Shown here piece after piece: positions 28,132-28,803 of a DNA stretch of 64,000 nucleotides. Each line of letters begins with the position of its first letter. The first letter of the stretch is position 1. Origin of the DNA: Terriglobales bacterium (GTDB lineage: Bacteria; Acidobacteriota; Terriglobia; Terriglobales; Acidobacteriaceae); contig JACPNP010000017.1 in NCBI GenBank assembly GCA_016185365.1, positions 1 to 64,000 on the forward strand, read 5' to 3'. The position numbers were made by a program, and so were the translations under genes. Below the pieces are notes generated by a model. It was not told the origin of the DNA. It saw only the letters and a program-made list of their open reading frames with translations, and did not search any database.

Positions 28132-28371
28132 CTAGATTCCCAACATTTTGTCGAGGCGTTCGGGGTCGAAGCCGATCATTATCTCCTCGCCCACAATGAT
28201 GGTCGGCGTGGAACGGCTCTGGTATTTCCCCACCAGTTCGCGGATGGCTTCGCGGTCGGCGGACACATCGCGCTCCGTGAAAGTGATGCCTCTCTCCGAG
28301 AGGTGCGCCTTGGCCCAGGCGCAGGGCGGTCAACCGGGCTGCATGTAGACAACGACGGGTTTTTCAGTCAT
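28132..28371 (-). CDS. Glutaredoxin-like protein, probable selenoprotein (in-frame UGA at the first active-site position)
   Basis: Reading from the ATG at 28371 gives an 80-codon frame with a single in-frame TGA (28332-28330) and a TAG stop at 28134-28132. With selenocysteine at codon 14 the product is a 79-residue glutaredoxin. MTEKPVVVYMQPG is followed by the active site U-P-P-C, then the cis-proline segment STPTIIVG and GFDPERLDKML. In homologues the active site is CPPC, so the UGA falls exactly on the first catalytic Cys. A perfect 7-bp stem with loop GGGCCA starts 6 nt after the UGA, and a second stem (CTCTC/GAGAG) follows. AGGA lies 6 nt before the ATG. It stands between osmC-like and EamA genes. 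A premature stop mutation is the alternative. Confidence 0.8.
28304..28323 (-). promoter_or_regulatory. Candidate bacterial SECIS stem-loop
   Basis: TGCGCCT, loop GGGCCA, AGGCGCA: a perfect 7-bp stem with G at the first loop positions, beginning 6 nt after the in-frame UGA. Bacterial SECIS elements are stem-loops just after the UGA with a G near the loop start. The loop is about 13 nt from the UGA, at the short end of the usual range. The next hairpin (loop GGA, about 32 nt away) is an alternative. Confidence 0.55.
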
Positions 28372-28395
28372 GGAGGGTCCTGGTTCGTGCCAGTC

Positions 28396-28803
28396 TCAAG
28401 CGTATTCGATTTCGGATTTGATGGAAACTGACTTTTGTAACATCTGGGAGACCGAGCAATACTTCTCCTTGGAGAGACGGACCGCGTCTTCCATGGCCTT
28501 CTTCTCAACCTCTCCATGGACGGTGTAGATCAGCTTGATATCGGTATAGACAGCCGGAACCCCGTCGAACCGGTGTCCCTCTGCCCGCACGTCGACTCCG
28601 GTGAACTTCACCCGCTTCTTGGTCAGGATCGAGACTACGTCAGTCGCGGTGCAGGCGCAGAGCGCGATCAGGACCAACTCCATCGGGCCGGTCCCGGAAT
28701 TGCGTTTCCGGTCCGCATCCACCACAAAGGCATGTCCGCTGCTGGCGGAAGATACAAAACGCTCTCCATCGGTCCATTGCGCACGGGCTTCGACCATCGC
28801 CAT
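28396..28803 (-). CDS. OsmC/Ohr family protein
   Basis: 135 residues with the two-cysteine OsmC arrangement: LCACTATDVVSIL (first Cys) and KEKYCSVSQML (second Cys). These proteins reduce organic or lipid hydroperoxides through the Cys pair. The ATG at 28803 has AGGAGA about 7 nt upstream and lies 4 bp after the CDF gene stop. The next gene is a glutaredoxin that could supply electrons; that link is inferred. Confidence 0.88.
   Translation of the reverse strand: MAMVEARAQWTDGERFVSSASSGHAFVVDADRKRNSGTGPMELVLIALCACTATDVVSILTKKRVKFTGVDVRAEGHRFDGVPAVYTDIKLIYTVHGEVEKKAMEDAVRLSKEKYCSVSQMLQKSVSIKSEIEYA

Follow-up and report, generated by a model that had tools for sequence, protein, structure and literature searches.

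The glutaredoxin-like gene and its osmC neighbor

The window, a 64,000-nucleotide stretch of DNA from a Terriglobales bacterium, carries on its minus strand a short glutaredoxin-like gene whose reading frame contains an in-frame UGA, with a hairpin of the SECIS type downstream of this codon and an OsmC-family gene upstream of the start (Table 1). Read through on the minus strand from 28371 to 28132, the frame gives MTEKPVVVYMQPG-U-PPCAWAKAHLSERGITFTERDVSADREAIRELVGKYQSRSTPTIIVGEEIMIGFDPERLDKMLGI-stop, where U stands for selenocysteine (Sec); codon 14 is the only in-frame TGA, yielding the sequence QPG-U-PPC. The Pfam Glutaredoxin model (PF00462) matched the protein at residues 6 to 63 with 54.2 bits, in agreement with a clean glutaredoxin frame on both sides of the UGA, and the U/CxxC/S motif is found near the N terminus as U14-P-P-C17. 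An earlier reading of the locus, made from the sequence only, had given the correct coordinates; the strand, which it had not given, is minus. It had also predicted that standard gene calling would lose the gene. In this frame, the mechanical list of open reading frames contains only a 44-amino-acid fragment with a GTG start, so that a plain gene caller would indeed lose it. Judged from the comparison with the nearest relative, purifying selection acts on the codons 3' of the hairpin (dN of 0.19 versus saturated dS).

Table 1. Positions of the features at the locus (window coordinates) and of further UGA-containing redox genes in the window genome
Feature	Position	Strand	Remarks
Glutaredoxin-like gene, predicted selenoprotein	28132..28371	minus	ATG at 28371; 79 codons plus stop; active site G-U-P-P-C
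In-frame UGA, codon 14	28330..28332	minus	Aligns with first Cys of CPPC in Cys homologues
SECIS-type hairpin CCUCUC-GGA-GAGAGG	28289..28303	minus	Loop 32 nt after UGA
OsmC-family gene (PRK10738/YhfA-like, Cys type)	28396..28803	minus	PF02566, 71 bits; ordinary UGA stop
AhpC/TSA gene with in-frame TGA, L117	G000:C66:40915-41316	minus	
AhpC/TSA gene with in-frame TGA, L120	G000:C10:30846-31226	plus	
AhpC/TSA gene with in-frame TGA, L122	G000:C51:33525-33824	plus	

The OsmC-family gene that had been noticed next door was confirmed by its domain match, and it lies 24 bp upstream of the glutaredoxin gene on the same strand. The sequence-only reading had added that both families include known selenoproteins. 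Sec-containing families of both kinds do exist; the neighboring OsmC falls outside the Sec-containing OsmC family, as its product reached 26.5 bits with the corresponding model (NF041052, cut-off 95) and internal UGA codons are absent. By sequence it is a Cys-type protein of the PRK10738/YhfA kind and no selenoprotein. Among the close UGA genes described below, 23 of 29 have an osmC homologue just upstream on the same strand, versus 3 of the 17 Cys genes. In the window (28372-28398), the UGA stop of osmC shares its frame with the glutaredoxin ATG, which follows after nine codons; this is probably a coincidence, because the gap lengths vary widely in relatives.

Conservation of the UGA codon and of the hairpin

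Homologues were sought in 200 genomes of the same order as the window genome and were found in 101 of them. Thirty genomes showed a strong homologue with one in-frame TGA, and 22 a strong homologue without TGA. The TGA stands at codon 14 and is followed by PPC in 29 of the 30 UGA genomes (the window genome and 28 others), and all 17 genes that were read from the 22 Cys-form genomes have a Cys codon (TGC or TGT) in its place. The UGA thus sits exactly where the homologues have the first Cys of CPPC, as had been claimed, and the alignment reveals the switch between UGA and Cys codons that the claim called for. A TGA at the same codon in 28 other genomes is due neither to chance nor to a base error. 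The loci read amounted to 48, including one distant match from another phylum (L053), which was the only locus obtained when genome contigs were searched with the protein. Two distant genes also have TGA at the same codon, namely, those of G187 (U-M-F-C) and L053 (U-P-Y-C). In a phylum-wide draw of 396 genomes, close homologues (E <= 1e-15) were confined to members of the same family. The tree of the 48 proteins was poorly resolved; parsimony gave 5 Sec/Cys changes, of which no more than 2 are imposed by the starred branches.

All 29 close UGA genes have a hairpin at a constant distance from the UGA, with variants such as CCUUUC-GGA-GAAAGG and CCUCGC-GGA-GCGRGG in relatives; only two of the 29 genes have a mismatched pair (one each) in the six-pair core. 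When a seven-pair stem was considered, 93.6% of the cells were paired in the UGA forms, with 17 double-changed cells and a covariation score of 0.225, and each of these three values was reached by none of the 500 shuffles and by no slid register, controls that correct for kinship incompletely. Three of the seven pairs account for the covariation, and the count of such pairs, taken by itself, is not above that of the shuffles (110/500). The same columns in the 17 Cys genes were 43.7% paired, no better than shuffles; almost none of the Cys genes retains the hairpin. Selection on the RNA is evident from codon usage: pairing requires AGA, a rare Arg codon, which was used at 20 of 24 sites at the hairpin but at 3 of 126 in the remainder of these genes (p = 5e-18).

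Bacterial SECIS elements have been described as having a loop of 3 to 9 nt, a stem of 4 to 16 bp, a G in the first two loop positions, a spacing of 16 to 37 nt, and an MFE of at most -7.5 (PMC13188914). The window hairpin, with its GGA triloop, 6 bp, 32-nt spacing, and -8.0 kcal/mol, lies within each of these limits. Stem-loops after the UGA had been reported from the sequence alone, and two are present; the second (28303-28289) is the conserved one. The first, strong in the window and spaced 13 nt from the UGA, was rejected as the SECIS since it is not kept in relatives. The 48-nt region as a whole was not unusually stable (z = -1.44).

One Cys-type homologue (CAPC) located beside osmC, L036 of genome G126, has an 8-bp hairpin with the loop AGGT at the SECIS position, possibly a remnant of a former Sec gene after a Sec-to-Cys change. 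In three relatives (L057, L058, and L061), selD is itself a UGA gene (AAG-U-ASKL), and this Sec-type selD bears, 20 nt after its own UGA, a hairpin in which a C-G pair closes a GGC triloop similar to that of the glutaredoxin. The likeness of the C-G-closed triloops in both genes suggests one SelB specificity.

Selenocysteine genes and other readings of the UGA

The presence of the Sec genes in the UGA genomes was in concordance with the UGA form. Thus, selA was found in 29 of the 30 UGA genomes versus 61 of the 170 others (Fisher test, 9e-11), selD in 29 of 30 (p = 6e-11 versus other genomes), and selC, as an Rfam tRNA-Sec match at E <= 1e-10, in 27 of 30 (p = 5e-9), all three p values being optimistic because kinship is ignored. 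Among the genomes with the Cys form, 13 of 22 have selA, which differs from the UGA form (p = 1e-3). Genomes G101 and G189 (2.2 and 2.5 Mb) contain the UGA glutaredoxin, selA, and a Sec-type selD, and gave no clear tRNA-Sec match in a sensitive search; their tRNA-Sec was either missed in the drafts or is an unusual tRNA.

In the window genome itself, the search for the Sec genes proposed in the sequence-only reading succeeded in part. selA (561 bits) and a full-length selB (382 bits) were found; selD and tRNA-Sec (selC) were not, in an assembly that is 89.5% complete and in 70 contigs. The chance loss of both genes at 89% completeness would be about 1%, if they are unlinked, and this is the only one of the 30 UGA genomes without both. 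The 13 Rfam hits examined as tRNA-Sec candidates were ordinary Ser, His, Leu, Arg, Cys, Lys, Tyr, and Thr tRNAs according to ARAGORN, the selD-like matches looked by sequence like ThiL and PurM and were far under the selD cut-off, and an Rfam scan beside selA and selB gave nothing.

Three of the seven AhpC/TSA genes of the window genome also contain one in-frame TGA (Table 1). Their contexts are those of a peroxiredoxin (..TPTU..), a redoxin (..RGYYUPKD..), and a SelL-related protein (..RHYGUIFC..), the last scoring 120.5 bits where the cut-off is 120. From their sequences, the three are probably further selenoproteins. Several such genes, intact and each with UGA at a redox position, speak for Sec decoding being in use in this organism.

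The missing selD and selC would fit a pseudogene or a leftover from former Sec use, in an organism that has lost both genes and in which translation now stops at the UGA. We consider this very improbable, since selA and selB are intact, as are the frame, the hairpin, and the conserved residues (with low dN), and the three other redox genes with a UGA have preserved their frames. Moreover, G101, whose assembly is 100% complete, and G189 keep selA, selD, and the UGA gene without a tRNA-Sec match, in accordance with selC being missed in some drafts. Slighter still is the likelihood that a suppressor-type tRNA reads the UGA as Cys or another standard residue, making the product an ordinary CPPC glutaredoxin. 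Such a reading agrees with Cys being the alternative residue at position 14 and with the tRNA-Sec not found in the window-genome assembly. However, 27 of the 30 UGA genomes have the tRNA-Sec match, and nearly all have selA and selD; UGA is the commonest stop of the long open reading frames of the window (15 of 31) and also ends the adjacent osmC; the conserved hairpin points to SelB; and the tRNA-like matches of the window genome, 13 of 13, are ordinary tRNAs. A sequencing or assembly error giving TGA for TGC is scarcely credible, for although the window species is represented by one assembly, the same TGA, with the hairpin, occurs in 28 others.

The UGA is thus, on the comparative evidence, almost certainly read as selenocysteine. 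The hidden selenocysteine glutaredoxin with a U-P-P-C site proposed at the outset is supported by the UGA/Cys switch, the covarying hairpin, and the co-occurrence with the Sec genes.

Predicted function and relation to known selenoproteins

Taken as a whole, the gene very probably encodes a Sec-containing, glutaredoxin-like thiol oxidoreductase, with Sec inserted at codon 14 by means of SelB and the hairpin, and likely to be an electron donor to thiol peroxidases. By analogy with known biology, SelA would make selenocysteyl-tRNA from seryl-tRNA-Sec and selenophosphate; SelB with this tRNA would bind the C-G-closed GGA/GGC triloop hairpin 3' of the UGA and insert Sec at codon 14. In the resulting U-P-P-C active site, Sec would make the attack and Cys17 would act in resolution. 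The selenoglutaredoxin would most likely pass its electrons to thiol peroxidases, for instance, the adjoining OsmC protein; the gene order suggests that it may reduce this OsmC-type peroxidase. More doubtful is the further proposal that the two genes make up a system dedicated to peroxide reduction in the order, with the Sec-redoxin as the specific reductant of the YhfA-type OsmC peroxidase. Neither the pairing of a selenoglutaredoxin with osmC nor such an electron donor for OsmC was found in the literature searched.

Sec-containing glutaredoxin (Grx, PF00462, UxxC) is a listed selenoprotein family (PMC13188914), and Sec glutaredoxins with UxxC were present in the surveys of 2005-2006 (PMC1088965, PMC1794560). 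A biochemical study in which a selenoprotein Grx reduces a selenoprotein MsrA is referenced in PMC13188914, and an Acidobacteriota genome with selenoproteins is already in the literature (PMC12013277). The window gene resembles the listed family in belonging to the glutaredoxin family, in the N-terminal Sec of UxxC, and in the SECIS just downstream. It differs in its UPPC site, in the GGA/GGC triloop hairpin, in standing usually beside osmC, and in that close relatives were found here in a single order of its phylum. Its best family match, TIGR02196 (GlrX_YruB), gave 82.4 bits, under the curated cut-off of 88.55, and NF041212 (Uxx-star glutaredoxin-like [seleno]protein) gave 60.2 bits, under that of 66; therefore, no NCBIfam model names the window protein.

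A further likeness is to NrdH-type redoxins and to PDB 3zij/3zit (named thioredoxin, 57 bits), small single-domain redoxins with CPPC, an STPT loop, and a C-terminal GF motif similar to that of the window protein, but with Cys where the latter has Sec. The selenoglutaredoxin resembles a small redoxin that is NrdH-like in part, which makes thioredoxin reductase a candidate donor as an alternative to glutathione.

Sec glutaredoxins with UxxC being known, what is new here is this selenoglutaredoxin clade and its frequent pairing with osmC (23/29). One bacterial order thereby gains a selenoprotein clade that is well supported and marked by a conserved SECIS hairpin. The clade comprises Sec and Cys forms, some of the latter in genomes that keep Sec genes, and is thus suited to the study of Sec/Cys exchange. 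For its part, the osmC neighborhood suggests which protein might donate electrons to an OsmC-type peroxidase, a proposal that can be tested.
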